Part shown: positions 1,489 through 25,991 of the stretch, one piece after another | Numbering within the stretch: the first letter of the stretch is position 1 | How the letters are laid out: every line of letters begins with the position of its first letter | Assembly: GCF_000969885.1 (NCBI RefSeq) | Contig: NZ_CP009501.1 | Span: forward strand, 1,116,001 to 1,180,000 | Direction: 5' to 3' | Length of the DNA stretch: 64,000 nucleotides | From: Methanosarcina thermophila TM-1 | GTDB taxonomy: Archaea; Halobacteriota; Methanosarcinia; Methanosarcinales; Methanosarcinaceae | The notes under the pieces: generated by a model | What the model was told of the DNA's origin: nothing | The model's database searches: none | What the model saw: the letters and a program-made list of their open reading frames with translations, nothing else | Program-made: the position numbers and the translations under genes

Positions 1489-3354
1489 TTATGCCCCCTT
1501 GAAGGCTTTTGCCCCGGTTACAAGCTCTTCTTCGAGCCCTTCCACAATAAGGTCGGGAAGTTTTTCGAGTTCTTTATCAGTCACACTTTCTATCCTGTAG
1601 CTGAGTACCTTTGAAGATCCAACTGCTGCCGAGATATCCCATACGTAATCATAGTCGTTGCCCAGGGTCACAACCTTTGGTTCTGGCTTTGCCCTGCTTA
1701 TTGTCCATGGCAGCATCTCATGAACTCTGAACGCGTATGAAGAAGTTCCGAAATTCTTAACCTTAATTACAATATCTGCGGACCCATCCTCATTCTTTTT
1801 AACTTTTCTGTGTACGAGCAGATTCCCCATAATCTTTGCAACAACAGGGTTAATGTCAGGGACATCCTTTTCCAGGATATTTGCTACCTTTGAAGCCATC
1901 TGCGGGAGTACCTTTGTAATTATAATCTCTTTCTCCCGGCGCTTCTTAAGGTTGCTCTGTTTACTAAGATAGTGCTTGAGTTTTCGTGCAACCTCCTTGA
2001 TTGCAAGATCAATCTCATCTTTGATTACGGGAATATCGGCAATTGCATCCTTTGATTCTGAGGTAAAAGGTACGTTAATAGATGCCACATGAACAAGCAG
2101 GATAGCCGGGCCTACAGGAAGTCCCCCTCCAGGCTGGTTTAAGCCGTACTGCTTCCATTTGATGTCTTCTACTGCATGTGTGATCACGCAGCCTCCCTGC
2201 TGGTAAAGCAGAGGCACCCGATTAGCAAAACGCATTATGCTGATCTTGTCTTCTTTCGGAAGGTCCCCCCCATAGGCGAGCCCGACTTCAACTACAAAAG
2301 GGTTTCCGGAATATACTGCAGGTTTTCGCGTGCTTGTGGCAATGAAATCCACGTTTGTTTCTTTTTCAAGCCCTCTGTAGATCAGCTCTTCCCCGATCGG
2401 GGAAAGACAGTCTGTCGGAGGAGCCATGATCTTTACCTTTTCAAAAGCTTCGATTAACTTTCTTGCTTCATGGCGTCCCAGGGTTTTTGGGTCGACTTCG
2501 GGATCAAGCCCCGCAGCTTTGCAAATCTCTTCGGCAGTCAGCAAACCTATTTTACAGAATGAGTATCGGAGGAATGGGGCGAGTTTCTGGCGCTCGGTGT
2601 AATGGAGCATTTTCATAAGAGTGCCAAGCTCTATACCTTCAGGATGGGGCAGGATTTCCTGGGCTGGCTCAGGCATCTTATCCGTGGCTCTTTCAAAGAC
2701 CACCTCGTTACCGTCAGGCTCTATAAGGGTAATTCTTGCATGTGGATTCACAATTGCAGTAGCTTTGAGGTACTCGTAAACTGACTGCCTTCTTCCTTTT
2801 ACATAGGCAGCCTTCATCTCCAGCTCGATCTGAGTCCCGTGCGGGCGGAACCAGTCTCTGATTTCATCTTTCAGAATGTCAGGCTCATTCGTGCTGGTAT
2901 TGATCATAAGCTCGTAATAGTGGGCAGGGGAATTGGGACCGGTTTTGGACAGAATTTTCGTATGCCTGCCCGCAGTCATCTGGGCATAGAGTACGGCTGC
3001 AGAAATCCCTATTCCCTGCTGTCCCCGGCTCTGCTTGAGGGCATGGAACCTTGAACCGTAGAGAAGCTTTGCAAAAACCTTTGGAATTTGTTCTTTTACA
3101 ATTCCAGGCCCGTTGTCTTCTACAATGACAGTTACGTAGTCCTGTCCGGTTCTTTCGATCTGGACAAGGATGTCAGGCAAAATACCTGCTTCTTCGCAGG
3201 CATCAAGGGCATTATCAACAGCTTCTTTTACGGTTGTTATAAGGCTTCGAGGCGCCGAGTCAAAACCCAGGATCTGCCTGTTCTTCTCGAAAAACTCTGC
3301 GACACTTATTGATTTTTGATGCTTTGCAAGTTCTTCTGCAACGGTGAATTCCAT
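1489..3354 (-). CDS. top6B: DNA topoisomerase VI subunit B (GHKL ATPase)
   Basis: The 621-residue subunit carries the GHKL ATPase fold at its N-terminus: the N-box [12 protein letters not shown] (about 44-55), the G1 box DNGPGI (about 80-85) and the G2 loop GQQGIG (about 111-116). The remaining transducer domain and a C-terminal Ig-like region fit the long Methanosarcina form. ATP binding dimerises the subunit and drives strand passage through the Top6A gate. The gene is upstream of top6A with a two-base gap. The ATG at 3354 begins the conserved N-terminus, and no better upstream start is visible. Confidence 0.97.
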
Positions 3355-3765
3355 GAAATTTTACCTCTGGTGAGAATGTAATGTAACTTTATATTATTTT
3401 ACAAATGACTAAACTAAGAATTAAAGTAAGAATTTATGCTTCTTTCAGCAGCAATTTTTAGTCTTATATTTTCTTAGAACATCCTTCAACACATGAGAAA
3501 TAGTTCGCAGCCTGAAAAACATTTTTACAATAAGAAAAATAGTCTCACAATATAAAAAAATATCTTTATATACAGCAAAAGAGCATAAAATCAGAAAATT
3601 TTCATTTACGTTTTTATTTTAAGCAGGTTTAATTAAAACCTTTAAGCAGCTGATTCTGACGATTTCCATTTTTCATAAAAAGTCAGGGTAGTCCGCACCT
3701 GCTAGAAAATATAAATTATTCATTTTGTCTCGTGATAGAATCCTGTTGATTTCGACTCTGGCAGT
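3355..3765. other. AT-rich intergenic region
   Basis: No credible reading frame. It must hold the promoter of top6B on the minus strand, and several TATA-like stretches are present (for example near 3390 and 3565), but none can be assigned with confidence. Confidence 0.5.
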
Positions 3766-3978
3766 TTAAAGTTCTGCCCCGATAATTGTCTTGGTCGTTT
3801 TTACGGTTTCCTGTTGTCTGATTATATCTACCACATCGTTAAGAGTGTACAGATCTTCAACATCTATAATTACTACAAAATCAAATTCCCCAAAGACATG
3901 ATAAACGTCCTTAATCCCTTCAATGTTCTTGAGTTCCCTGTATGCCGCCTTTTCATAACCTGGCAGCACGTTTATCAT
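3766..3978 (-). CDS. Lrp/AsnC-type RAM (ligand-binding) domain protein
   Basis: This 70-residue protein is a stand-alone RAM domain, the effector-binding half of Lrp/AsnC regulators, without the usual HTH. Features seen are the opening strand MINVLPGYE, the AYRELKNIEGIKDVYHVFGEFDFVV core and the ending KTTKTIIGAEL, all typical of the family. Such one-domain proteins form rings and may bind amino acids or partner with full-length Lrp proteins (family knowledge). It diverges from the recombinase gene at 4063 across an 84-base gap, so both promoters share that gap. Confidence 0.85.
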   Translation of the reverse strand: MINVLPGYEKAAYRELKNIEGIKDVYHVFGEFDFVVIIDVEDLYTLNDVVDIIRQQETVKTTKTIIGAEL

Positions 3979-4062
3979 TGATATACCGAAAATGGCATCA
4001 CAACCTTAAAATTTATTATGCTATTAATGAGGTAGGATCTATGGTAAAACAGAGGTATTATT

Positions 4063-5307
4063 TTGAAAAGCTTGTTTGATAAATGGCTTGGAGCAGTTGC
4101 AAAGTCAGATAACACAAAAAGAAATTACTCGCATGCTATTAAAGCATTTTGTGAATTTGTAGATAAAGCTCCTGATCAACTCATTATTGAAGCTGAAAAA
4201 GAAATCAAAGAAGGTTTGCTAACGCGTGAAAGATCTGTTTCTGATTATGTACCAGACTTCATAGAGCATTTGGAAAGCAAGAACCTTGCTCCTAATACCA
4301 TTCGCGGATATATAATGGCTATTCAGTCGTTTTACAATTACTATGATATTCAATTTCCTAAACAGAGAAACCTTGAATCTATAGTATTAGAAAGTAACGT
4401 TGAAATACCTTCAAAAAATGACGTTCAAAAAATATTAAAAGTATGTGATCCTTTGGAGAAGGCAATTGTTCTTGTTGGTGCTTCAGGTGGATTAAGCTCT
4501 AATGAGATTATTAATCTAAAAGTTGGTACTTTTAAGGATGGATATGATTCTACAACAGGAATAACGACCTTAAAAATACGTAGAGGCAAAACTAAGACCG
4601 ATTTTATCACATTTCTCACTCCTGAAGCTAGTCAGGCAGTTAATGATTACCTAGAGTTCAGAGATAGAAAATCTGATTCAACCGATATTAGGAAACAAAG
4701 ACAATTACAGAAGCAGCATGTTTATTCTGATAACGATTATCTTTTTATTGGTAGGACAATACCGAATGAATGGCTTGAGAAAAGAGATGAGCGACTCAGG
4801 AAGCTTGAAAGAAATTCCTTCCTCAAGATATACCGGATGCTGAATGAAAAAGCCCGTAAGTCAACTCCTAAAGGGACATGGAATATCATCCGAAGTCACA
4901 ACCTGAGAAAATACTATGACTCTGCTTTGTTAAATGCTGGTTGCGACTCTTTCTTTGTTGAGTTTACAATGGGACATAAAATTGATAGAACTAAAGCCGC
5001 TTATTTTCGATCTGATCCAACCTCTTTAGCAAAGATATATGGAAAATATGTGCCTTATCTCACAATTCAAAAAGAGGCAGATATTTCAGAAAGTCCTGAA
5101 TACCTGCGGATCAAACAGGAGAATCAGATCTTGCAAGCTGAGACAGCCCGACATGTTGTGGAAAGATCAGAGCTGCAAGAACTAAAGGCAGAGATAGAAA
5201 GGATAAAGGAATCCCAAGAAATTACCGAGATTACACTAGAACTGCAGAAAAAAGATCCTGAGTTCTTAAATGCTGTTATGGAGGCTCTTAAAGCTATGAA
5301 AAATTAA
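4063..5307 (+). CDS. Tyrosine recombinase / integrase
   Basis: The 414-residue protein has an N-terminal SAM-like core-binding domain (about 1-105), a catalytic domain (about 115-335) and a C-terminal coiled coil (about 345-414). The HNLRKYY motif (box II, His and Arg), the MGHK histidine and candidate nucleophile tyrosines in the following AAYFRSD or IYGKYVPYL segments are visible. The box I arginine is not where expected: the segment reads GGLSSNEIINL, with Ser at that place. I chose the TTG at 4063 because AGAGG lies seven bases upstream. The gene sits at the left edge of the accessory region and is its best candidate integrase. Confidence 0.85.
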   Translation: MKSLFDKWLGAVAKSDNTKRNYSHAIKAFCEFVDKAPDQLIIEAEKEIKEGLLTRERSVSDYVPDFIEHLESKNLAPNTIRGYIMAIQSFYNYYDIQFPKQRNLESIVLESNVEIPSKNDVQKILKVCDPLEKAIVLVGASGGLSSNEIINLKVGTFKDGYDSTTGITTLKIRRGKTKTDFITFLTPEASQAVNDYLEFRDRKSDSTDIRKQRQLQKQHVYSDNDYLFIGRTIPNEWLEKRDERLRKLERNSFLKIYRMLNEKARKSTPKGTWNIIRSHNLRKYYDSALLNAGCDSFFVEFTMGHKIDRTKAAYFRSDPTSLAKIYGKYVPYLTIQKEADISESPEYLRIKQENQILQAETARHVVERSELQELKAEIERIKESQEITEITLELQKKDPEFLNAVMEALKAMKN

Positions 5308-5466
5308 TTTTCTAGTTTCCTTATATAAAATTTTAATTATTTTTATGAAAAGATCCAGCACTTAAAATATTGAAGGACATTTGCTACCCCAATTGTGATA
5401 GGATGTTATTATACTAATGTTTTTTTATTGTTTAGTAGCAACTAATATAGACAGATATATAAAGAG

Positions 5467-5510
5467 ATTAACCGTTCACAATTATGAACGGTTAATAATT
5501 ATTAACCGTT
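5467..5510. repeat. Three iterons of ATTAACCGTT
   Basis: ATTAACCGTTCA (5467-5478) and its exact reverse complement TGAACGGTTAAT (5485-5496) are followed four bases later by a further copy ATTAACCGTT (5501-5510). Inverted plus direct copies of a 10-bp word beside a small DNA-binding protein gene suggest an operator or a replication-origin site of the element. Confidence 0.6.
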
Positions 5511-5542
5511 TATCGGTAGCAGGCTCATAGTTTGACCATTAT

Positions 5543-5584
5543 CTTTTTATATAAGAGAACTGTACAATACTTTACAGTAAAGTA
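5543..5584 (+). promoter_or_regulatory. TATA box followed by a 17-bp perfect palindrome
   Basis: TTTTATATAAG at 5543-5553 is a good archaeal TATA box. The perfect palindrome TACTTTACAGTAAAGTA lies at 5568-5584, where the transcript would begin. The arrangement fits a repressed promoter for the small gene at 5723. Confidence 0.55.
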
Positions 5585-5634
5585 AAAAAATTGGTGGAGA
5601 TTAATAACAGACTGATATAAAACATACAAAAAAA

Positions 5635-5654
5635 CGTTAAATTAAGATTTAACG
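5635..5654. promoter_or_regulatory. Palindrome CGTTAAAT-N4-ATTTAACG
   Basis: Perfect 8-bp arms with a TAAG spacer, in the leader between the promoter at 5543 and the small DNA-binding protein gene at 5723. The arms resemble the TTAACG core of the 5467 iterons, so the same protein may bind both. Confidence 0.45.
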
Positions 5655-5722
5655 GCACTAGAGGTTATTTTACTATTACAGTATAAATTCAACAACATAG
5701 TTCACTTAAAATGGAGAATAAA

Positions 5723-6078: not shown

Positions 6079-6243
6079 ATGCTGAATATCGAACAGTTGC
6101 AACCCTACACAGTTGAGACTTTGAAAAAAATTTGTGCAGATCGAAGAGATACCATCGAGCATATGCAAAAATTCGGAACCACCTTTGAAAAAGCTGTAGC
6201 ACTCGTGATCCTTACAGCCGGAGGCGAGAAAAGTGCAGTATAA
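6079..6243 (+). CDS. Hypothetical protein, 54 aa
   Basis: ATG at 6079 follows TAGGAG at 6068-6073 with normal spacing. The 54-residue product is mostly helical (LKKICADRRDTIEHMQKF, then a hydrophobic stretch KAVALVILTAGG). I do not recognise the family. It begins a chain of overlapping small genes (6079, 6233, 6445, 6715) that ends in the helicase-primase, so it probably belongs to the same replication operon. Confidence 0.55.
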   Translation: MLNIEQLQPYTVETLKKICADRRDTIEHMQKFGTTFEKAVALVILTAGGEKSAV

Positions 6244-6445
6244 AAACAGATGTACAGATGGTTCACAACATCTGCAATATGTTTCAGGCCAAACTTTGGA
6301 CTATATGCCACCCTCTAAGAGAATAGATTACTCTTTCAATCGTCTAAGAAACTTTTCTAAGCATCAGTGGCTAGATACTAAACGCTTGCAGGATAATAAG
6401 CCTGAAAAATTGCACGAAGAGGAGCAGAGCGGGAGGACTTATTAA
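6233..6445 (+). CDS. Hypothetical protein, 70 aa, overlapping both neighbours
   Basis: GTG at 6233 overlaps the previous gene by 11 bases and has GGAGG at 6220-6224. Its TAA overlaps the ATG of the next gene (TAATG, 6443-6447). The product is hydrophilic and rich in Lys, Arg and Gln (for example YSFNRLRNFSKHQWLD). I do not recognise it. The good ribosome-binding site and tight coupling on both sides are the evidence that it is translated. Confidence 0.5.
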   Translation: MQYKNRCTDGSQHLQYVSGQTLDYMPPSKRIDYSFNRLRNFSKHQWLDTKRLQDNKPEKLHEEEQSGRTY

Positions 6446-6714
6446 TGTCCCTTCCTGTCATTTCTAAAAAAACCCTTAATGAGGGAATTTTGGATCATTG
6501 CAGGAAGGCTGCGAACTTAGACAAATTCGTTAAGTTATATGATAAAGGTGATTGGAGAGCCTTTAAATATCCCTCTTAGTCCAAGGCAGATTACGCACTA
6601 TGCTTTATTATTGCCTTCCATACTCAAAATAAAAGGCAAATTGACAGGTTTTTTAGAAAAGGAGCGCTTTACGGGAAGATTAGAACCGGACTTGTAAGCA
6701 TACAGGGTGTTTAA
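6445..6714 (+). CDS. Primase-associated small protein with in-frame amber codon (possible pyrrolysine)
   Basis: Reading from ATG 6445 (GGGAGG at 6431-6436) gives 44 residues to a TAG at 6577-6579. The same frame then continues 44 codons to a TAA at 6712-6714 that touches the ATG of the helicase gene. The text across the TAG is GDWRAFKYPS-amber-SKADYALCFIIAF, then RQIDRFFRKGAL. This matches the motif GDW..YPSQSEADLAL...DRLFRQSGL known from phage and plasmid primase proteins on both sides of the stop. The TAG replaces a Gln codon (CAG). Methanosarcina can insert pyrrolysine at UAG, so readthrough to 89 residues is plausible; a nonsense mutation is the alternative. Confidence 0.6.
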
Positions 6715-7431
6715 ATGGTTCAACTTACCCTTACACAAAATCCTCGAATGAGCCAGGATAAGCGGATAGGAATTGCCAATCAAATCTATGACCAGTTCGT
6801 ATCTGGGCCCTGTATTATTTACAAAACTACTAGGGCTGGAGCTACGATTTCACTACTAGCAGAATCCATGAATAGAAACGAAAAGTTTGTTTGTTTAGTC
6901 CCTACTAATAGGATTGCAACTAACACAGTAATAAAAGACTCTAAAAAGTACTCAGATTTGGATAATGCTGTAGTTATTCGTGTTCCTGCGAACAAAGAAT
7001 GCCTAAAAAATGAGCTTCTCTGTGAAAAATACCCAGATCTAAGGCAACTTCCTGTACTACCTATTGCAGATTCATGTTTTGAATGCGATGAGTTTGATAA
7101 ATGCTTGATTACAGCAGTTGTAAGAAAACCTGATGCAAATGGTATTGTATTGACTTACAAAAAAATAGCAGCTCTCCAGCTTGCTTCTCATTTAAGACCT
7201 AATACATATGCAGAAGAGGTTTTAAAGGTACTTGAGAAGTCAAAAAATCTGATACTAGATGAAATCCACGAAATACAGTTCGGAGATATAACTTCAGTTA
7301 CAGTGTACAATGACACATCTTTCGATATTGTAAATCTGGAGAAATATATCTCCATAATGACTGATTTTGATTATCTACGCCGAGTAATTACTCAGTTTTC
7401 CTTAATAATGAAAGATAATACGGCTCTGTAG
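6715..7431 (+). pseudogene. N-terminal fragment of IS-interrupted helicase-primase (helicase motifs I-II)
   Basis: This is the front of a gene that originally ran 6715-7421 plus 8438-10640 (969 codons in one frame once the IS and one target duplicate are removed). Visible are a P-loop-like KTTRAGAT (37-44), LVPTNRIATNT (motif Ia) and LILDEIH (motif II, about 179-185). Between Ia and II sit five cysteines (C96, C103, C121, C124, C130), the position where XPD/DinG-type helicases carry a 4Fe-4S cluster. The last few codons to the TAG at 7429 come from the IS inverted repeat. Alone this piece cannot be a working helicase. Confidence 0.8.
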
Positions 7432-8350
7432 AAATCCTTAATTTAATCCATAATAATTGTATTACTTTTTTGTTTATATTATAGACTATTAGTTTAACTT
7501 TTACTTCTTTTACTTGATTTCTAACCTTTCTTGCTCTTAATGTTTCTCCAAATTTTCTTTTTACAACAGATATTATTGTCTCTACTATATTCCTTCTATT
7601 GTATTTGATCTTATCAAAGTCTTTGTTTAATTGTTTTCTATATTTTCCGTTTATTCTCTTTCTTTTTCTTTCTCTCAAAGGTACTATTGAATCTGCTTTT
7701 ATCTCTTCTCTTATTAGAGTATGAATTTCTTCGGAATCATATCCTTTATCCATCACATAACATTGAGACTTTCTTGACTTGTTTGATTGTCTTATCAGAG
7801 TCTTTGCATGCTTGACATCATGATCTGTTTTTTGGCTAATTTTCCATCCTAATATTACTTTTTTAATAGTGTCTACTGATATTGAAGTTTTAAGGAAGCT
7901 CCTTCGGAGCTTCCCTGTTCTCTTAGAATAATAATGACTTGCATAAGAACTCGTAAATCCTGTTGCATCAATTGCCGTAATGAGAACTTTTTCTCCATGT
8001 GAGTAAAATAGTTTTAGAGTTTTTGACAAAATTAGGTTAAACAATGAAGAGGGAATTCTGGACACAAACTTTTGAAGAGTAGTGTAATGAGGAACCTTAT
8101 CAAGGTCAAGTTTTTCCTTTATACTGTTCATGAGGTCAACAAGTTCTACAAAGTCACGGTAGTCTGTACTTATATACTCCTTCAATAAAACAAGAACAAG
8201 AAGCTGATGTTGAGTATAAACACGTTTGGAATATTTGCAGGAGTAAAGGTTCAGTCTGGAAGACTGAACCGTTTTAAGACTGAGATCAATAAATTTAATA
8301 TACTTATTTGATGACAATAGCAATTGCTCCTTTGTTTTTTGTGTGGACAA
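7388..8350 (-). CDS. IS5-like DDE transposase
   Basis: The 320-residue transposase has acidic catalytic segments [20 protein letters not shown] and [16 protein letters not shown] (D, D, E), with the basic Y-R-R-N-I-V-E block typical of the IS5 superfamily. Two oddities are seen. The frame has no stop inside the element: it runs through the left inverted repeat and takes its last residues and stop from the target gene. The start is also unclear: the frame opens with TTG at 8350, while an ATG at 8366 would be in frame only if the run of seven T at 8349-8355 were one base shorter. Confidence 0.85.
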
Positions 8351-8429
8351 AAAAATTAAGGAGCATTTTTACAATTTTATTTTTATAATTTTTGGGTAAA
8401 AACAGAATTTAGAGGATTTCTACAGAGCC
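7422..8429. mobile_element. Insertion sequence, 1008 bp, IS5-like, with 8-bp target duplication
   Basis: Perfect 17-bp terminal inverted repeats bound it: GGCTCTGTAGAAATCCT at 7422-7438 and its reverse complement at 8413-8429. The target duplication GATAATAC is present at 7414-7421 and 8430-8437. An 8-bp duplication is what the ISH1 subgroup of IS5 makes (family knowledge). Removing the IS and one duplicate restores the interrupted gene exactly, so the insertion is clean and probably recent. Confidence 0.95.
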
Positions 8430-8437
8430 GATAATAC

Positions 8438-10640
8438 CATAAAGACTTCTGTTCATGAAGTTTTAGGTGGTGCTCAGGAGGAGGACTACTGGAAGCATCA
8501 TCTTACCAAATCAATTCCGAACCCGAGCACTGGAGTAGCCGATGACGGAGAAAACGAGACTAAAGTCACATTAGGTGCATATAAAGAAATTATAGAACTA
8601 ACAAAGAAAAGGAGAAATTATGACCTTGAAATGGGTAATATTCTAGATCTCTACAAAATGATATCAATTGTTACGAGTAAAGTCATCTCTATCAATGGTA
8701 TACGAGATAAAGGAACTATAAAAATAAATCTATCTGCAGTTGATCAGTTAACCACCAAAATGATTCAGTCTTATACGAAGAGAATGCAAAGCAGGAATAG
8801 GCGTATCTTATTGACCTCTGCAACAATTTGCAGTTATGATTATGGGCAACTGTTTTCAGGTGGAGTCAAACTTAAAAAAATAACATTTGGGATCAATGGG
8901 GATCCAGTGAACAATAACTCTAAAATGCTTATTCTGTCCGATTCCAAAAAGTATGACGCCTTCGGTAGAAACTCACGATCAAATAAGAGAGACGAGATCG
9001 TATCTAAGATAATAAGCATTTTAGAAATATATGGAGATGAGGACTGCATAATTGTAACTATCAGCGAGAGAGAAGCTTCAAGTTTAGAGGCTGCATTGAA
9101 GGCTGCAGGACACCCGTATGAAGTAACTTATTACAAAGATCCTAAAATGATGGGGATATCTGCAAGTCAGAGGATTATGATTGCTGTAGGGGTTGCAAAC
9201 AAGCCTTCAAATGCTTTTGACGTGGTTACAACAGACACTGAATCCTCTAAGAGAATGTTATATGAGTCTATCCATTGTGATACATGGCAGGCCTGGAGTA
9301 GAGTAAAAGATCCTAATAGTGAAGTTCCAAGTATTGTGTTCGCTTTAGGATGTACTGTAGAGGAATGTGAGGGTTTAACAACATGGGGATTTGATCGAAG
9401 TATAGAGATTGCTCCTTATATTGAAAGGCAGAAAAAACGGATTACAGTTTCGTGTGACAAAGGATTAATTTCGAAGCCACAAATAAAAAAATGTAAGAAT
9501 TTTGATGAGATGATGAAGGAGGCTAGTTTACATAAACGGTCTAAAAAAACACTGAAAAATACTGAAAATCTCCTTATTTATAATAATATAAGGAGATTTT
9601 GCTATAAATACCCTAAAATTTTACACAGTAGCGAAGAGATTGTAAAACTCATTATCAATCGTAACGATGCTTATGCCATGCAGAAATCTGACGGGTCATA
9701 CATAAAGTTTTCTACTCAAGTTACGGACGAAACTATTAGAAAGCATTTGAAAGGGATCATTACAATTGGTGCTTATCAATTCAATCAGGAGAATAAAGTT
9801 AAATGGATCTGTTTCGACATAGATTCTCATCCACCTAAAAATAGAATTGAAAGCGAAGAAGATATTAGAAAAAGAGATGAAAAAGCAGAGTACAACCGAG
9901 AGAGAATGTGTAATTTCCTGAAAAACGCCAATATACCTTTTCTTCTGGAAAAATCAGGTTCGCCTCACTCTTATCATATATGGGTGTTTCTTCGCCCTGT
10001 AGATGGAAAGAAGGCAAAACAATTTGCAACGATAATAAAAAAAGAAAGCGGAATTAATTGTGAAGTATTTCCAAAGCAGGAAGGAATAGGGAAAAACAGC
10101 TATGGTAATCTTGTTAAGGTTCCTTTGGCAACTCATCAAAAGCATAAAACTCAGTCTCACATAATGGTTAATGGTAAATTTGTAAGAGAATTTACTGATT
10201 TGGAAGTCGAAGTTTTAGATATTAGTGGTTTTGAAGCTCCAGAAGAAAAAACAGTTGAGAAGAAAATAAGGCCTGAAAAACACTTAGTTCGAGTAAATGG
10301 TCAGATTAAGACTAAAATAAGACCTTGTATCAGGAATGCTCTAAAAATGCAGTTAACAGGTGATTCTGGCAACTTCATGCGTGTAGCTATTTGCAGGGAA
10401 CATTACAACGCTGGAGTACACAATCCTGAAGAATTAACTAATCTTTTTAGGACTCAATCTGACTTCTCTTATAGAAAAACGAAATACTACATTCATAAGG
10501 TACTTGAAAAACTATTACCTAATGTAAAATGTGAGACTTTACGAGTGAAGGGAGGTGAATTTGTAAACTGTGCAGGTTGCCCCTGCACGGAAGTAACTTT
10601 TCTTACTCATCATATAAAGGATGATTTTAAAATAACCTAA
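8438..10640 (+). CDS. C-terminal part of IS-interrupted helicase-primase (helicase C-half plus AEP primase)
   Basis: The frame is open from the IS end at 8438; the first ATG is 8631, giving 669 residues if translation restarts there. The helicase half continues with RILLTSATICS and the motif VI-like WQAWSRVKDP. An archaeo-eukaryotic primase domain follows: catalytic FDIDSH (Asp codons at 9816 and 9822), then SGSPHSYHIWVF with its Ser-X-His, then GNLVKVPLATHQKH. The tail holds C-I-R-N and CAGCPC cysteines, suggesting an iron-sulfur or zinc-binding primase C-terminus. The layout resembles helicase-primase proteins of mobile elements (TOTE-like AEP). The primase part could still be made as a separate protein. 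Confidence 0.8.
9565..9600 (+). repeat. Perfect 13-bp inverted repeat inside the helicase-primase gene
   Basis: AAAATCTCCTTAT (9565-9577) and ATAAGGAGATTTT (9588-9600) form a strong hairpin between the helicase and primase parts. The right arm contains AAGGAG, a ribosome-binding sequence that the hairpin would hide. No start codon is well placed after it, so a role is uncertain. Confidence 0.5.
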
Positions 10641-17891: not shown

Positions 17892-18473
17892 ATGAAACGA
17901 CTAAATAAAATACAGGATAAAGAGCGAATTTATTCATTTCCTTTCTTTTTAAAAAAGCCGCTCTATGTTTTAGCTATTTTTTGCTTAGTTTTCTTCAGCT
18001 TGGGCTGCACTGATATTAATGATTCTGGTGATAAAACAGGGACTGTTGAAACTACAGCTGATGTTAATAATTCTGCTAGTAAAGCAGAATTGATTGAAGT
18101 CACGAACCTTAGTCAGATTGACGAGGCTCTAATAAAAGGTCCCGTTGTGCTGAAGCTTGGATCTAAGGGCTGTATCCCCTGTAAGGAGCAAGAAGATATA
18201 CTTTCAGAGATTCTTCCAATGTATCAGGGCTCTGCTTCAATCATGCTTATTGATATCAAAGAGTATCCAGAATTTGCGACAACATTTGGAGTAAGAGTAA
18301 TTCCAGATACCTGTATAATTACAGGCATCGAGGACGGCAAATATATGTATATACGACAGGACGGAAGCAAAAGTTCAGAAAGATCAAGTGCAAGGTTCCT
18401 GGGTGTTGTTGATAAAGAAACTCTTTCAATGACACTTGAGAAAGCTATTGACTCCAGAAACACAAAGGAGTAA
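17892..18473 (+). CDS. Exported thioredoxin-fold lipoprotein
   Basis: The 193-residue protein begins with a basic segment and a hydrophobic helix (about 27-39) ending in SLGC, a lipobox-like cysteine, so it should be anchored outside the membrane. The thioredoxin part shows VVLKLGSKGCIPCKEQEDIL (active site C-I-P-C) and FGVRVIPDTCII, with the cis-proline at VIP. A linker of Ser, Thr and Asn joins the two. The next gene is CcdA four bases downstream, so CcdA probably delivers electrons to this protein for reducing disulfides or metalloid-bound thiols. Confidence 0.88.
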   Translation: MKRLNKIQDKERIYSFPFFLKKPLYVLAIFCLVFFSLGCTDINDSGDKTGTVETTADVNNSASKAELIEVTNLSQIDEALIKGPVVLKLGSKGCIPCKEQEDILSEILPMYQGSASIMLIDIKEYPEFATTFGVRVIPDTCIITGIEDGKYMYIRQDGSKSSERSSARFLGVVDKETLSMTLEKAIDSRNTKE

Positions 18474-18477
18474 ATCT

Positions 18478-19122
18478 ATGTTTTCCGACTTTCTTCCGGT
18501 TGCTGCTTTTTTTGCAGGAGTAGTGAGTGTACTCTCCCCCTGCATCCTTCCTGTAATTCCGGCAGTCTTTGCTTATTCAACTGAAAAAGGAAAGTTCAGG
18601 CCCCTTGCAATCGTACTGGGGCTGTCCATTTCCTTTACCAGCATGGGGATTGTCACTTCCCTTTTTGGAGCAACACTTACAGCCTATTTAGATCTACTTT
18701 ATGTCTTTGCCGAGGCTCTTCTTATCACGATGGGTGTTTCACTACTCTTTGACCTCAATATCTTCAATTTTTTTGGAAATTTTTCTTCACTTGCAAATTC
18801 CAGAAAGGAAGGTCTTTTTGGAGGCCTTTTACTTGGTCTCTCCCTTGGGATTGTCTGGCTTCCTTGTGTTGGCTCAGTACTTGGTACCATCCTTACAATG
18901 GTTGCAGTTTCAGGTAAAGTTGCGTATGGAGCTCTAATGCTTTTCATATATTCCATAGGCTTTTCCATTCCCATGCTTCTCGTTGCTTATTCTGCGAACT
19001 TTTCCTCCGCGAGACTTCAGAAAGTTTCAAAATATGGGTTTCCTTTAAAAAAGATTGCAGGCCTTATTGTTTTGGGTGTCGGCTTTTATATGGTTTACCA
19101 GAACCATTTTAGTAGTTTCTGA
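18478..19122 (+). CDS. ccdA: Cytochrome c biogenesis protein CcdA / DsbD-like membrane reductase
   Basis: A 214-residue protein with about six membrane helices. The paired cysteines of the CcdA family are present: VLSPCILPVIPAVFAY in helix 1 and GIVWLPCVGSVLGTIL in helix 4, each followed by proline or near it. It moves electrons from cytoplasmic thioredoxin across the membrane. I place the start at ATG 18478 with AAGGAG at 18466-18471, not at the earlier in-frame codon that would overlap the lipoprotein gene. Partner is the thioredoxin-like lipoprotein just upstream. Confidence 0.93.
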   Translation: MFSDFLPVAAFFAGVVSVLSPCILPVIPAVFAYSTEKGKFRPLAIVLGLSISFTSMGIVTSLFGATLTAYLDLLYVFAEALLITMGVSLLFDLNIFNFFGNFSSLANSRKEGLFGGLLLGLSLGIVWLPCVGSVLGTILTMVAVSGKVAYGALMLFIYSIGFSIPMLLVAYSANFSSARLQKVSKYGFPLKKIAGLIVLGVGFYMVYQNHFSSF

Positions 19123-19329
19123 GCTTTTAGGTACTTCCAGAAACTTATTTTTCAGATCCTGGAAGATATTGAAAATAGAGCACCCAGTATACTGATATTC
19201 TACAGCAGTTTGAAGTTGTTTTTTGTCTAACAATAAGTAACTCTAGAATCTTCAATCCTTTTTGATTAGACATTACTTTTAAAAATGAGTTCAAGAACTA
19301 AAGGATTTAGAACTAATAACCATAAATAT

Positions 19330-19357
19330 ATATGGATATATGCCCATATACTCATAT
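19330..19357. promoter_or_regulatory. Second-class ArsR operator (ATATGGATATA-N6-TATACTCATAT)
   Basis: Inverted repeat just ahead of the arsR start at 19362 with a TATA-like ATAAATATATA overlapping its left edge. Its right arm is identical to that of 30835-30862 and the left arm differs in two bases. Confidence 0.7.
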
Positions 19358-19361
19358 AACC

Positions 19362-19733
19362 ATGCTTGATAGTAAAGTGAAGTTCTTTAAAGCTCTCGGA
19401 GATGAGACAAGGCTTACTATCCTGTCTTACTTGCTGGAGCACAGTTACTGTGCCTGTGATTTCTCTTCTCTTACAAGAAAGGATCAAACTACGGTCTCAA
19501 AACACCTTAAGGTTCTTGTTGAGGCTGGTATTTTGAAGTACGAAAAACAGGGAAGAAACATCATCTATAGCATTAAAAACGAGGAGATTGGGGCTTTGCT
19601 TCTATCTCTTGGGATTAAGGATGTAAAGCCCTGTTGTGATGGACAGCAGGTCTCAGGAGTATGTCCTATGTGCAAAACTGAACACAGAACTAATACTGTT
19701 AATGAGACTGTTGATAACAGGGTTGAGAAATAA
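19362..19733 (+). CDS. arsR: ArsR-family repressor
   Basis: I use ATG 19362, since the earlier frame start lies inside the operator. The 123-residue product has FKALGDETRLTILSYLL, the As(III)-sensing pair in YCACDFSSL, the recognition helix TVSKHLKVLVEAGIL and the wing GRNIIYSI. The C-terminus adds PCCDGQ and CPMCK, extra cysteines that could form another metal site. It is followed 68 bases later by arsM, so it likely controls that gene and itself through the 19330 palindrome. Confidence 0.92.
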   Translation: MLDSKVKFFKALGDETRLTILSYLLEHSYCACDFSSLTRKDQTTVSKHLKVLVEAGILKYEKQGRNIIYSIKNEEIGALLLSLGIKDVKPCCDGQQVSGVCPMCKTEHRTNTVNETVDNRVEK

Positions 19734-19801
19734 AGCTAAGGATAACTGAAAGTAAGCTAAAGGTAGAATAGAAAAATATCAACTAAGGAATGGGTAGGAC
19801 A

Positions 19802-20551
19802 ATGGATGCAAATGAAAAAAAGGAAGTTATCAAAAAGAAGTATCAGGACATTGCAGTCTTCGGAGGTTCCTGCTGTCCTGGCGGTTCCTGCTGTGGAGAG
19901 ACAAGTCCGGTAGACCTTTCCAAGTCTCTCGGCTATTCCGAATCTGATGTTCAGGCTGTTCCGGATGCAAACCTGGGACTTGGATGTGGCAACCCTACTG
20001 CTTTTGCAGATCTGAAACCGGGAGATATCGTTCTGGACCTGGGTTCTGGTGCGGGATTCGATTGCTTCCTTGCTGCACAAAAAGTCGGAAGCTCAGGAAA
20101 GGTTATCGGAGTCGATATGACTCTGGAGATGATTGAAAAAGCGCAGGCTAACGCTCAAAAATATGGATATTCAAACGTTGAATTCCGCCATGGAGATATT
20201 GAAGCTCTTCCGGTTGAAGACAGTTCGGTAGATATTATTATCAGCAACTGTGTGATTAACCTGGCACCTAATAAAGAAAAGGTTTTCAGGGAGGCTTTCC
20301 GTGTCCTGAAACCAGAGGGCAGGATGTATATTTCGGATATGGTTCTCCTTGAAGATTTACCTGAAGAGCTTAAAGATGACACTGGTCTGCTCGCAGGCTG
20401 TATCGCTGGTGCCGTTTTAAAAGAGGAATATTTGAAGTTTCTGAAAAAAGCAGGGTTCTCAATAGAGATTCTAAATGAAGATTTGGATATCAGCAAAAGG
20501 CAATACGGAGATTTGCCAGTTGAGAGCCTGAAATTAAAAGCCTGGGTGTAA
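19802..20551 (+). CDS. arsM: Arsenite S-adenosylmethionine methyltransferase
   Basis: The 249-residue protein has the SAM-binding [15 protein letters not shown] (motif I) and [12 protein letters not shown] (acidic end of strand 2). Cysteines match the ArsM pattern: GFDC in motif [12 protein letters not shown] and [10 protein letters not shown]. The N-terminus carries [13 protein letters not shown], two more vicinal pairs typical of archaeal and bacterial ArsM proteins. It methylates As(III) to volatile or excretable forms in the cytoplasm. It lies behind an arsR gene, giving an arsR-arsM operon. ATG 19802 is preferred to 19790, which is too close to AAGGA. Confidence 0.93.
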
Positions 20552-20713
20552 AAAGAAGACAGGGCAAATATGGGAAAAAGCATGAGTGAATATCATCAGT
20601 TCCTGATGGTTTCTTCACTGATCCCCAATTTTCTTTTATTATTTAAAGAATCTGTACTTATTATACCTGATTTTTAATGCTTTATAAAAGGATTAATAAC
20701 CGTCACAATGCTA

Positions 20714-20742
20714 ATTAATTGTTGTATTCAATAACAATTAAT
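20714..20742. promoter_or_regulatory. Inverted repeat overlapping the arsC start codon
   Basis: ATTAATTGTT and AACAATTAAT form perfect 10-bp arms around GTATTCAAT; the right arm covers the first two bases of ATG 20741. It differs from the two ArsR palindromes of the island, so another factor or RNA structure may be involved. Confidence 0.5.
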
Positions 20743-21205
20743 GGTACCAAATACAAGATTACAGGAAAAAAAGAAAATTCTTTTTCTATGCACTCACAAC
20801 TCAGCCAGGTCTCAGATGGCGGAAGGTCTTTTGAGGGCTATCTATGGAGATCGATACGAGGCTTACAGTGCTGGGGTCAGTGCCACAGCTGTAAATCCCT
20901 ATGCTGTTCAGGTTATGAAGGAGATAGGTATCGATATCTCCAGTCAGTACTCAAAAACTCCCAAAGAATTCCGGGATATCATTTTTGATATGGCAGTCAC
21001 AGTATGTGATCGGGCTAGAGTTTCCTGTCCTATATGCAGTACGAACCTGGAAATTCAGACCGAATACCCCAAAGCAAGAGAAGTAATTCATAAAAGTTTT
21101 GAGGATCCTGCTGCAGCTTTGGGATCAGAAGAAGAGAAGCTAAAGGTTTTCCGCCAGGTCAGAGATGAGATAAAAGACTGGATCTCCCAGGTATTTGGGA
21201 AATAA
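20741..21205 (+). CDS. arsC: Arsenate reductase, low-molecular-weight phosphatase type
   Basis: The 154-residue protein has the phosphate loop FLCTHNSARSQMAEG (C-X5-R) at the N-terminus. The cysteines of the relay lie in VTVCDRARVSCPICSTN, and EDPAA provides the acid Asp. These are the features of thioredoxin-coupled ArsC (pI258 type), which reduces arsenate to arsenite. It follows arsM but has its own spacer of 189 bases and a palindrome over its start. Electron donor may be one of the island thioredoxins. Confidence 0.95.
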   Translation: MVPNTRLQEKKKILFLCTHNSARSQMAEGLLRAIYGDRYEAYSAGVSATAVNPYAVQVMKEIGIDISSQYSKTPKEFRDIIFDMAVTVCDRARVSCPICSTNLEIQTEYPKAREVIHKSFEDPAAALGSEEEKLKVFRQVRDEIKDWISQVFGK

Positions 21206-21260
21206 TGTCTGGTCTTTGATCTGCTTGCCTGGCATCATTCCTTAACTTTTTTGAAGATTT

Positions 21261-22160
21261 TCACAATGTCAGCATATTTGCAAGATATCCTGCAATCACA
21301 GCTATTGAAAAAACCGTCACCACGAAGGCTGTCAGTAGTCTTCTCTTGAATATTGATGATAGAAGTGTCAGCTCAGGTATGCTGGCTCCTGCACCGCCGA
21401 TTATCAGTGCCAGAACAGCTCCCACACTCATTCCCTTCTCAATGAGTGCCAGTCCAATAGGAATCATAGTTTCAGCCCGGATATAGATAGGGACACCGAT
21501 AATTGCAGCAACAGGAACTGCTAGAGGATTGTCCGGCCCGGCTAGGCGGGAAATGATATCCGTGGGCACGAAACCGTGAATGAATGCTCCGATTCCTGCT
21601 CCCAAGAGCAGATAAGGCATAAGCTGACGGAAAAGGCTAAATGCGAATACTGCAGACCGCTGTATTCTGGACTTCGCATTCGTTTCCTGCTCACAGTCAC
21701 AGCGGTTTCGTACAACAGCAACTGGCTTAATCTGACTGGAAAAGCCTAACCCATCAAGTAAGAGACCTATAACAATTGTAGATACGAAGACAACGACAAA
21801 ATAGAGAGCAGCTATCTTCCAGCCCAATAGTATGATAAATAGAGATATTATTACCGGGTTTAGCAAAGGTGACGAGAAAAGAAATGCCATTGCTGCAGCA
21901 AAAGGTACACCAGCCTTAAGCATCCCCAGGAGAAGCGGTACGGTTGAACAGGAGCAGAAGGGAGTAAGTGCACCAAATCCTGCCCCAAGAATACTGCCTA
22001 CAACTTTATTTCTTCCCCCCAGAGCTTTTTTTATGGTTTCATCAGGGACATACTCCTGAATCAGTCCCACTAGAAAGGTTATTCCAATAAATAAAACAGT
22101 AAGTTCTACAGCTATCTCAATAAAGAACTTGGCCGCCACAATTAAATTATCCCAGAACAT
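21261..22160 (-). CDS. DUF318/ArsP-type permease
   Basis: A 299-residue protein with about eight membrane helices. The hallmark segment FGALTPFCSCSTVPLLLGM has the Cys-Ser-Cys-Ser pair seen in ArsP and related permeases, and GVPFAAAMAFLFSSPLLNPV and a later GVPIYIRAETMIPIG match the two-fold repeat. ArsP proteins export trivalent organoarsenicals; whether this one moves arsenic is inferred from context. I prefer ATG 22160 over 22169 because GAAGG touches the earlier codon. A loop between the halves has CDCEQE. Confidence 0.85.
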   Translation of the reverse strand: MFWDNLIVAAKFFIEIAVELTVLFIGITFLVGLIQEYVPDETIKKALGGRNKVVGSILGAGFGALTPFCSCSTVPLLLGMLKAGVPFAAAMAFLFSSPLLNPVIISLFIILLGWKIAALYFVVVFVSTIVIGLLLDGLGFSSQIKPVAVVRNRCDCEQETNAKSRIQRSAVFAFSLFRQLMPYLLLGAGIGAFIHGFVPTDIISRLAGPDNPLAVPVAAIIGVPIYIRAETMIPIGLALIEKGMSVGAVLALIIGGAGASIPELTLLSSIFKRRLLTAFVVTVFSIAVIAGYLANMLTL

Positions 22161-22336
22161 TTTGATCATCCTTCAAAATTATTTTTTTCTTCAAATAATC
22201 GAAAGCTACAGCTCTTTGAAACTTGAAAGCGACACATATCCTCTCAGAAACCCGACTTTTTTGAGGTTTAGACCGTTTTTGAGAGGTTCAACTTCGTCCC
22301 TAAATACTACTTTCAAAAAGAGAACTTTCTGGAAGC

Positions 22337-22750
22337 TCATTTATCATAAAGTAGTTTTGCCTGGTTAAGTATTTCAATAACTGCTCCTTCCGAGAGACGA
22401 AAGTAAGACCATTTCCCTTCTTTCCGTTCTTTGATCAGGCATGCACTCTTCAAAACTGAAAGATGGTGAGAAACAGTCGATTGAGAGTTTGAAAGGGCAA
22501 TAGTTAATTCGCAGGCACAGAGTTCTCCTTCTTTTAATAGTTTTATAATTTTGAGACGATTGGGATCTGAAAGGGCTTTAAAAATCCTAGCTTCCGAATG
22601 TAGTGCTTCTTCATCCAGTTCATTTACCAGAGAACTGAGCTTCTGCGTTCTTACCTCTAACTGATCCCTGTCAAAAATAAAACGTTCCAATCTTCCAATT
22701 TCTACTTCACGCTTACTTTTATTCACATCTAATTTTCTTTCAGCTTCCAT
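22337..22750 (-). CDS. arsR: ArsR-family repressor with N-terminal extension
   Basis: The 137-residue product has about 50 extra N-terminal residues, mostly charged helix, before the ArsR core IFKALSDPNRLKIIKLL. The As-sensing pair is in ELCACELTIAL, the recognition helix is TVSHHLSVLKSACLI and the wing WSYFRLS. ATG 22750 has TAGGT ahead and follows the small zinc-ribbon gene by four bases, so the two make an operon. It precedes the permease at 21261 in the same direction. Confidence 0.9.
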   Translation of the reverse strand: MEAERKLDVNKSKREVEIGRLERFIFDRDQLEVRTQKLSSLVNELDEEALHSEARIFKALSDPNRLKIIKLLKEGELCACELTIALSNSQSTVSHHLSVLKSACLIKERKEGKWSYFRLSEGAVIEILNQAKLLYDK

Positions 22751-22754
22751 GAGT

Positions 22755-22922
22755 TTACCTACAGCAGCTGCCTCCACCTTCTAAAGGAAGTAGCATCTTT
22801 TTGCTCTGTTCTTTTGACCAGCACTTCACACACAGTTTTATAATTCCTAAGTCCCTGTGATTGGCTCGGAGTAACGAATCTTCCTCTTTTCCGCAAATTG
22901 AGCATGTGAGATTCATTTCCAT
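22755..22922 (-). CDS. Small zinc-ribbon-like protein with CC tail, 55 aa
   Basis: The product reads MEMNLTCSICGKEED at the start (C-X2-C), then IIKLCVKCWSKEQ (C-X2-C), which together look like a zinc ribbon, and ends GGGSCCR. It lies four bases ahead of the arsR at 22337-22750. A 20-bp imperfect dyad (CTAC..GTAG, 22960-22979) sits about 40 bases upstream and could be its operator. Not recognised as a named family; the vicinal cysteine tail recurs in this island. Confidence 0.65.
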   Translation of the reverse strand: MEMNLTCSICGKEEDSLLRANHRDLGIIKLCVKCWSKEQSKKMLLPLEGGGSCCR

Positions 22923-22985
22923 CGACTCACAACAAAATTCTTGTCAGTAAATGGCAACACTACATATTCATATACGTAGATATAA

Positions 22986-23291
22986 TTACTTTCTTTTCCC
23001 CTGCCAGTATGTCTCATATTCCTTAAGTACTGCGACTTTGAGTTTCTCCAGTTCTTCTTCGGGAATTTCATTTATTTTTGTAAGGTTTCGGACAAGTTCT
23101 TCTATGTCTATATTTTCCGGTGCCTTGCCTGCAGAAAAATGCTTTTCGAATTCCTCATCCAATCCGGCAATTTCCATATCTTTGTTGTCAACTTTTATTT
23201 TTTTGATGCTTACAATAGAAGGACCGCAGCAACAGCAACTTTTGTCGCTTCCAACCAATTTTCCAAGCAAATTTTTTCCAAGTTTGCCCAT
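22986..23291 (-). CDS. Conserved-looking cysteine-rich protein, 101 aa
   Basis: The N-terminus has DKSCCCCGPS, four consecutive cysteines, followed by a beta strand SIVSIKKIKVDN, then a helical part (GLDEEFEKHF, NIDIEELVRNL) ending WQGKRK. I do not know a function; I believe relatives occur next to thioredoxin and permease genes in methanogens. GGAGAT is 10 bases ahead of ATG 23291, and the promoter has a TATA box followed by the palindrome at 23324-23343, so it belongs to the ArsR network. Confidence 0.7.
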   Translation of the reverse strand: MGKLGKNLLGKLVGSDKSCCCCGPSIVSIKKIKVDNKDMEIAGLDEEFEKHFSAGKAPENIDIEELVRNLTKINEIPEEELEKLKVAVLKEYETYWQGKRK

Positions 23292-23323
23292 CTAAGAACA
23301 TCTCCATTAGAGATCTATAAGAT

Positions 23324-23343
23324 ATATCAAGAATTATTGATAT
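23324..23343. promoter_or_regulatory. ArsR-type operator ATATCAA-N6-TTGATAT
   Basis: Perfect 7-bp arms with spacer GAATTA. On the minus strand it follows a TATA box (TTTTATATCA, about 23357) and precedes the cysteine-rich gene at 23291. Confidence 0.7.
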
Positions 23344-23614
23344 TTATGTCTGTCGATATGATATAAAAAGATAACGACTTCAAAAATAGAAGCCTCAATG
23401 ATGGGAATAAAATAGGCATATGTGGCTTTCCATATATTCGAACGAAACTACTTATTGGCCGATTTCAAGGATGACAACTATATTGTAATCTCTAAGTTAG
23501 GGACCAAGAATAACAAGGGCAGAAATAAGGATTATAAGCGATTAAGATCTTGGAAATTCATAAGGGTAATTCAGAGTTAACTTCTGTCTTTAGAAAAGTA
23601 TATATACCTTCTAC

Positions 23615-23633
23615 ATTCAATGTATGTTGATAT
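23615..23633. promoter_or_regulatory. ArsR-type operator at the leaderless arsR promoter
   Basis: ATTCAA-TGTATG-TTGATAT, placed nine bases after the TATA box at 23597-23606 and touching the probable start codon 23632. Confidence 0.65.
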
Positions 23634-23931
23634 GATTAATGAAGAAAATCTACAACTATTTAAGGCCCTTAGCGAAGATACAAGGTATAGAATTATCAAG
23701 GCTTTAATTGAATCTGAGTGTAAATGTGGGGAAAATAAACATGGTAATAAAGGAGAAATATGTGCGTGTGAGATCCCAGAAATTATCGGCAAGACTCAAT
23801 CCAACACCTCAATGCACCTTGCAAAACTACAGGATTGGGGGATAATTAAAGTAAGAAAAGACGGCAAAAAGAGATTATATTCTATACAAAATGAAAAAAT
23901 CAGGAAAATCTTGGAAGTCCTTGAAGAATAA
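23632..23931 (+). CDS. arsR: ArsR-family repressor with two Cys-X-Cys sites
   Basis: The 99-residue protein has FKALSEDTRYRIIKAL, then ECKCGENKHGNKGEICACEI, in which a second Cys-X-Cys comes before the usual one, and TSMHLAKLQDWGII as recognition helix. I choose ATG 23632, about 26 bases from the TATA box, as a leaderless start; an earlier ATG at 23620 lies in the operator. It precedes the permease operon at 24250 and the same palindrome controls both. Confidence 0.88.
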   Translation: MINEENLQLFKALSEDTRYRIIKALIESECKCGENKHGNKGEICACEIPEIIGKTQSNTSMHLAKLQDWGIIKVRKDGKKRLYSIQNEKIRKILEVLEE

Positions 23932-24176
23932 GATTTTGTAATAATTATTGAAAACTTAAGAGTTATGAAGAGTTGTGTTTTCATCAGCTCATTTATTTAC
24001 ATCTCAAGTTTCAGGGAATCTTTTTCTATATTCCACCTCTTTTCTCATTCATCAAATCTGCGGATTTTTTTCTCTGAAAACATGTCGGGGAATCTGCTGA
24101 TATCAGTAAATCTGTAAGAATTCAAAATGAATAAAGTGTTTCGAGGCCTATGGGAATATTTATATAGTATGCAATG

Positions 24177-24195
24177 TATCAATGTATGTTGATAT
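24177..24195. promoter_or_regulatory. ArsR-type operator at the permease promoter
   Basis: TATCAA-TGTATG-TTGATAT, about 12 bases downstream of a TATA box (TTTATATA, 24159-24166) and upstream of the permease gene at 24250. Confidence 0.7.
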
Positions 24196-24249
24196 ATTTG
24201 AGAATTGAGAAATCAGTGAAGAAATGATGGATATAAAGGAGGAGCCAAA

Positions 24250-25221
24250 ATGGTTGACGTGTTTTATCCTCTTCAATGGATTGCTGACCAACTGACATAC
24301 GAGGTGTTAGGAATTGCACCTGATACGCGCCTCGCTGCCAGTGTTAATTTTGTTATCTATGATGTAATGAAAATTTTCGTTCTTCTGGCTGTAATGATCT
24401 TTATCGTTTCCTACATGAGGACATATATCACTCCTGAAAGAACAAGACAGGTTCTTGGAAGCAAGCAAGGAATCAGATATTATGTTCTTGCGTCTCTTAT
24501 TGGAACAGTGACTCCTTTCTGTTCGTGTTCATCAGTTCCGATCTTTATAGGATTTGTGGAAGCTGGAGTGCCTCTGGGAGTCACTTTCGCTTTTCTGATC
24601 ACTTCTCCTCTTATAAACGAAGCTGCTGTAGCTGCTCTATGGGCAACTCTCGGCCTTAAGGCTACAGTGATGTATGTTATATCAGGAGTTGCACTGGGTG
24701 TTCTGGGTGGTTATCTAATTGGTCATTTGAAACTTGAAAGATATGTAGAAGACTTTGTGTATAAGATGAAAGTGGGAAAACAGAGTACTGAAGATCAAAA
24801 ACTAACAATTAAGGAAAGAGTAGATTTTGCTTTTGAGAGCGTAAAGGAAATTGTGGGTAGAGTATGGCTCTATGTAATAATTGGAGTCACTATAGGAGGC
24901 ATTTTTCATGGATATGCGCCTGAAGGTATACTCGAAAAGTATGCAGGGGAAGACAATCTTCTTGCAGTGCCAATTGCTGTACTTATCGGAGTGCCCCTTT
25001 ACTCGAACGTTATGGCAATGATACCTATTGTTGAAAGCCTGATAGGAAAAGGACTTCCAGTAGGAACTGCCCTGGCATTTCTCATGTCTGTTACAGCCGT
25101 GTCTCTGCCTGAGATGATTATCCTTAGAAAGGTACTGAAAAAAGAACTGATAGCGATCTTTGTTTCAATTGTAGCAGTTTCGATAATCTTTACAGGTTAT
25201 CTATTCAATATGTTGTTGTAA
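24250..25221 (+). CDS. DUF318/ArsP-type permease
   Basis: The 323-residue membrane protein is a paralogue of 21261-22160. It has TVTPFCSCSSVPIFIGFVEAG, the hallmark Cys-Ser-Cys-Ser-Ser pair, FLITSPLINEAAVAAL, and a second repeat with GVPLYSNVMAMIPIVE. The strong site AAAGGAGGAG precedes the ATG. It heads a run of same-strand genes (thioredoxin at 25309, DGC remnant at 25609, 26079) below an ArsR-type operator. Likely an efflux permease for metalloid species, with substrate unproven. Confidence 0.85.
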   Translation: MVDVFYPLQWIADQLTYEVLGIAPDTRLAASVNFVIYDVMKIFVLLAVMIFIVSYMRTYITPERTRQVLGSKQGIRYYVLASLIGTVTPFCSCSSVPIFIGFVEAGVPLGVTFAFLITSPLINEAAVAALWATLGLKATVMYVISGVALGVLGGYLIGHLKLERYVEDFVYKMKVGKQSTEDQKLTIKERVDFAFESVKEIVGRVWLYVIIGVTIGGIFHGYAPEGILEKYAGEDNLLAVPIAVLIGVPLYSNVMAMIPIVESLIGKGLPVGTALAFLMSVTAVSLPEMIILRKVLKKELIAIFVSIVAVSIIFTGYLFNMLL

Positions 25222-25608: not shown

Positions 25609-25991
25609 ATGGCAGAAGAAACTAATGTTCATGCGGCTCGGCAAACGTTGCACTTTTCCCCTGCGCAGGGGCAGCCAATGTTGGACAGATCTCAAACAAA
25701 ATCGCTATTGCGCTTGAAGAGCAGGGAATTGGAAATCTTATGTGCACTGTTGGAATAGGAGCCAGAGCTCCAGGACTCATGAAATCCGCTGAATCTTCTG
25801 ACAGGATTATTGCAATTGACGGCTGTCCGGTAAACTGTGCCAGCAAGACTCTCGAACTTGCAGGTTTTAAAGTTGGCCGCCAGATAGTAATTTCAGAATT
25901 AGGGATTAAGAAAACAAAGGATAGAAACCCAAAGAATGAAGAAGTAGACGAGATTCTCGAAAAGGTCATTGGGATACTGCAATCGGAGTGA
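25609..25991 (+). pseudogene. DGC-domain (zinc-binding) protein gene with frameshift
   Basis: A strong AAGGAG precedes ATG 25609, which reads MAEETNVH and then leaves the right frame. From 25632 the frame one base off reads CGSANVALFPCAGAANVGQ, and continues to IAIDGCPVNCASKTLELAGF, the hallmark DGC block, ending at 25991. Loss of one base at about 25630 explains it. Joined, the protein would be about 126 residues, a usual size. The intact part after 25740 (ATG) lacks the first cysteines. Could also be a sequencing error. Confidence 0.75.

Follow-up and report, generated by a model that had tools for sequence, protein, structure and literature searches.

Gene content of the integrated element

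The window analysed comprises 64,000 nucleotides of Methanosarcina thermophila TM-1 (contig NZ_CP009501.1, positions 1,116,001 to 1,180,000), and all features below lie on its forward strand unless stated otherwise. An integrated element is marked by a tyrosine recombinase of the phage integrase family, which forms an intact frame of 414 codons (4063-5307; PF00589, E=4.5e-13); no attachment-site direct repeats of at least 16 bases were found to be shared by positions 3301-5720 with any other part of the window. Further along are three overlapping or abutting ORFs, which appear to form a tight group of small genes ahead of a helicase-primase gene. The first (6079-6243) encodes 54 residues, is preceded by a Shine-Dalgarno (SD)-like AGGAG and has no Pfam match, while the second (6233-6445) encodes 70 residues from a GTG start, with GGAGG upstream, and has no homologs in 112 genomes of the family outside its own. 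The third, a frame of 89 codons (6445-6714), corresponds to a stand-alone helix-bundle domain (HBD) of NrS-1/D5-type primases and contains one amber codon. It reads MSLPVISKKTLNEGILDHCRKAANLDKFVKLYDKGDWRAFKYPS-TAG-SKADYALCFIIAFHTQNKRQIDRFFRKGALYGKIRTGLVSIQGV-TAA, with an SD-like GGGAGG before an ATG that overlaps the last base of the preceding ORF's stop (TAATG). The amber is codon 45 (6577-6579), and the frame is otherwise free of internal stops and frameshifts. An earlier, sequence-only reading of this DNA had pointed to the in-frame TAG and to the contact between the next stop and the helicase start; both are borne out, the TAA directly abutting the helicase ATG at 6715.

The gene following the HBD frame encodes a TOTE-type helicase-AEP primase (AEP-TOTE match to PF22548, 1.6e-24) and is interrupted by an insertion sequence (IS). 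Based on Pfam matches, relatives and the joined flanks, its 5' part spans 6715-7421, through the target duplication GATAATAC (7414-7421), and its 3' part spans 8430-10640. The intervening IS (7422-8429, minus strand) carries a DDE_Tnp_1 transposase and is delimited by perfect terminal inverted repeats of 17-18 bp and the 8-bp target duplication; the transposase ORF (7388-8350, minus strand) overruns the IS end, with its stop at 7388 in target DNA. A genome search identified 12 full-length copies of this IS at 100% identity, the present one included, and the insertion is therefore recent. When the flanks are joined without the IS, they form one open frame of 969 codons; from the window's copy, the helicase-primase cannot be made in one piece. 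Of the window's 58 long ORFs, two terminate with TAG: one does so as a result of the IS, and the other is located at 25622-25969 on the minus strand, with its next TAA or TGA 50 codons on. Downstream of the element region, positions 17892-25221 comprise thioredoxin, DsbD-like, methyltransferase and two ArsP-type permease genes, possibly an arsenic-related cluster.

Full-length relatives of the helicase-primase occur in the family, the closest being 57% identical over the helicase part and 60% over the primase part. These relatives differ from the window's IS-split copy in having no HBD gene upstream. Since other small genes occupy that position in the nearest relatives, an HBD gene seems, as a rule, not to be required by elements of this kind.

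Homology of the helix-bundle domain and its missing parts

The 44 residues past the TAG alone match the NrS-1 polymerase HBD family (PF22763, E=5e-8), at 32-33 bits against a curated cut-off of 27.9. Furthermore, a profile built from 21 relatives, excluding the window, scored 74 bits in an uninterrupted match to residues 13-76 that spans the TAG. Codon usage is coding-like on both sides of the amber (0.19 before, 0.17 after), as opposed to scores of -0.04 and -0.03 for the other two frames after it. Together, homology and codon usage identify the amber-split frame as more than chance, and uphold the earlier proposal that both sides of the TAG are conserved. The HBD alignment profile also matched solved structures, namely NrS-1-type primase chains (PDB 6a9w, 6k9a; E about 3e-9) and the DNA primase 7ola (E 2e-10). 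AlphaFold modelled the 89 residues as a helical bundle (mean pLDDT 75) in which codon 45 opens a predicted helix spanning residues 45-59. A fold search against the PDB returned only weak, non-significant matches, led by a primase helix-bundle and a primase-polymerase chain, and no relatives of the HBD or of the helicase-primase were recovered among viral contigs.

In contrast to the NrS-1-type and 7ola domains, which are fused to a primase (and helicase), the window's HBD is a separate frame that carries an amber and lacks the nearly invariant KW...DY motif (KW loop). Clear homology ends at residue 76 and PF22763 is covered over only about positions 1-33 of 64, leaving out the KW...DY...TI end of the full domain. 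No 3'-end frameshift that would restore the KW motif was seen in the other frames, and the last 12 residues, KIRTGLVSIQGV, show a weak resemblance to the final HBD helix (p about 0.02), to which they may correspond. Nor is the domain joined to an AEP part, as is characteristic of NrS-1/D5-type primases: a six-frame search with a 302-position profile of relatives found no AEP part upstream of the HBD, whether intact or frameshifted. Apart from the window's own, HBD matches above the cut-off in the 112 family genomes numbered 25. With the exception of a scrap in a 63-codon frame of genome G021, these reside in frames of 314-1054 codons that cover at least 57 of the 64 profile positions. All intact copies are thus within larger primase frames, and a second intact stand-alone HBD gene was not found in these genomes.

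A stand-alone piece with an abrupt end to its homology, a comparable scrap in G021 and a broken helicase-primase gene are what would be expected if the frame were a dead fragment left by recombination between primase modules, its TAG an ordinary nonsense mutation and its product not meaningful. However, the frame contains a single stop and no frameshift, its start is well placed behind an SD-like motif, its end exactly abuts the next gene, and coding-like codon use is retained on both sides of the TAG. We therefore consider such a fragment rather unlikely.

Residues at codon 45 and decoding of UAG by the host

The sequence-only reading had stated that relatives carry glutamine in place of the amber and had asked whether related elements would have CAG or TAG. 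Glutamine was indeed found, together with H, K, P, N, A or D, and the aligned relatives have sense codons throughout, none with a TAG at this site; the amber itself is therefore not conserved. One primase locus (L014, genome G022) has a TAG in the same domain but at a different site. Because of this array of residues, codon 45 appears from the alignment to be a site that tolerates change, and its ancestor was presumably CAG, one base from TAG. That a frequent residue of this position is encoded just one base away, and that a single copy is known, might also suggest a CAG to TAG error in sequencing or assembly; given a single-contig genome of 3.13 Mb that is 99.95% complete, and a frame that is otherwise regular, we regard such an error as highly improbable.

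As the earlier reading had presumed, the host is equipped to read UAG as pyrrolysine: the TM-1 genome encodes pylS and tRNA-Pyl (pylT, anticodon CUA), with pylB, pylC and pylD adjoining. The locus also displays a hallmark of a pyrrolysine protein gene, an in-frame UAG within coding sequence conserved on both sides. In pyl-bearing archaea UAG serves as a sense codon as well as a stop, and an introduced amber was read through at 20-30% in an M. acetivorans reporter (PMC2933860). This capacity speaks against a wholly silent fragment as well, since, provided that the gene is translated, host suppression could scarcely fail to yield some readthrough. A PYLIS is not strictly needed for UAG to be read (PMC2933860), and no PYLIS-like structure was seen downstream of the TAG (z=+0.6).

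Two published cases offer parallels. The Thg1 gene of M. acetivorans likewise possesses a single amber that is absent from relatives, in a Pyl-decoding Methanosarcina, and the amber is inessential for Thg1 activity (PMC2933860). The Thg1 amber is, however, reported to be translated as pyrrolysine, whereas the frame described here is known from its sequence and is situated in a mobile element. Methanosarcina transposases with in-frame UAG are also known (PMC2933860; PMC3639795), and resemble the present case in being mobile-element genes of pyl-bearing hosts, but their ambers are conserved across copies, in contrast to an amber known from one copy only. Among the matches listed for integrases of the family, a small sample, in-frame stops comprised 3 TAG, 3 TGA and 1 TAA, and hence no excess of TAG over TAA and TGA.

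Interpretation of the amber and comparable replication genes

From these findings, the explanation that we favour, with somewhat better than even confidence, is that of an incidental, tolerated amber that is partly read through in a dispensable stand-alone HBD gene. According to this model, a small HBD gene would have derived from an NrS-1/D5-type primase and come to lie just before the TOTE-type helicase-primase of an integrated element in Methanosarcina. At the variable start of a helix, codon 45 would then have become TAG, most simply from CAG. With pyrrolysyl-tRNA(CUA) available in the host, ribosomes would either stop, yielding a 44-residue product, or insert pyrrolysine, yielding one of 89 residues, and no special signal would be required for insertion at this codon. 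The amber would persist because the position accepts many residues and because the gene can be spared or has already fallen idle. Both the partial readthrough in M. thermophila TM-1 and the dispensability of the gene are what we infer for this locus, and some pyrrolysine-bearing product, in partial yield, is plausible.

A tolerated amber is consistent with continuous homology around a variable site, the pyl genes, the Thg1 and transposase parallels and the lack of structure after the TAG, as well as with the closest helicase-primases having no HBD nearby, the IS-split gene, the absent KW loop and the lack of a TAG excess in integrases. Set against an accident are the tidy packing of the frame (SD-like motif, TAATG and TAA-ATG contact) and a codon usage that still resembles coding sequence past the TAG; the 74-bit match also indicates little decay across residues 13-76, which would suit a gene in use whose amber is read.

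These same features would be expected of a functional pyrrolysine-containing HBD, in which UAG is read efficiently and the 89-residue domain acts in trans with the adjoining AEP-TOTE helicase-primase, such that the element depended on Pyl before the IS arrived. In addition to the compact cluster with its SD-like motifs and to the coding signal and homology kept past the TAG, this possibility draws on a helicase-primase that was an intact 969-codon frame until the recent insertion, on the AlphaFold helical bundle (mean pLDDT 75) and on a similar TAG that interrupts the HBD within a long primase frame of the pylS-bearing genome G022. Nonetheless, it would call for a stand-alone gene with no other intact example in the 112 family genomes, for a domain missing the KW motif of nearly all relatives, and for an element whose close helicase-primase relatives do without an HBD gene; moreover, a site that accepts Q, H, K, P, N, A or D has no need of pyrrolysine. 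We deem efficient, required decoding unlikely, and a tolerated accident more likely than a required pyrrolysine site. The earlier suggestion that the element needs the Pyl system of its host is consequently not supported by a stand-alone HBD without a KW loop, by helicase-primase relatives lacking an HBD, or by the IS-cut helicase-primase. Likewise, the restriction of hosts that had been proposed to follow from such a need does not follow here, since the replication gene of the element has already been split by a recent IS.

Stop codons within replication genes were also identified elsewhere in the family. In G022, a D5-type primase (L104 4368-6824; G022:C77:18000-30000) comprises about 800 codons that are otherwise open, with one TAG, located within the HBD where Q is found in many relatives (YTQD). 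In G018, a 925-codon helicase-AEP primase frame (L103 1415-4192, counted on the minus strand; G018:C8:8500-13948) has a single in-frame TAG (HYI-TAG-TLGKF). Both genomes possess pylS. A third HBD primase frame (L018; G076:C16) breaks soon after the domain, with a TAG and other stops close together, and looks like decay. Because the G022 and G018 frames have no other interruption from end to end and the genes, unlike the window's HBD gene, are of normal size, they appear on sequence grounds to be better candidates for pyrrolysine-containing enzymes. One TAG in each of these long replication genes of pyl-bearing relatives suggests that TAG is tolerated in working genes. The window's HBD could be a separate pyrrolysine-containing subunit of the helicase-primase, with the G022 primase and G018 helicase-primase of related Methanosarcinaceae elements also reading UAG as pyrrolysine and so tied to Pyl-decoding hosts, a scheme that we judge improbable.

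While the HBD locus of the window is one weak case in this regard, ambers in the mobile elements of Pyl-decoding archaea provide a test of whether, outside the methylamine methyltransferases, UAG is a sense codon tolerated genome-wide or a stop.
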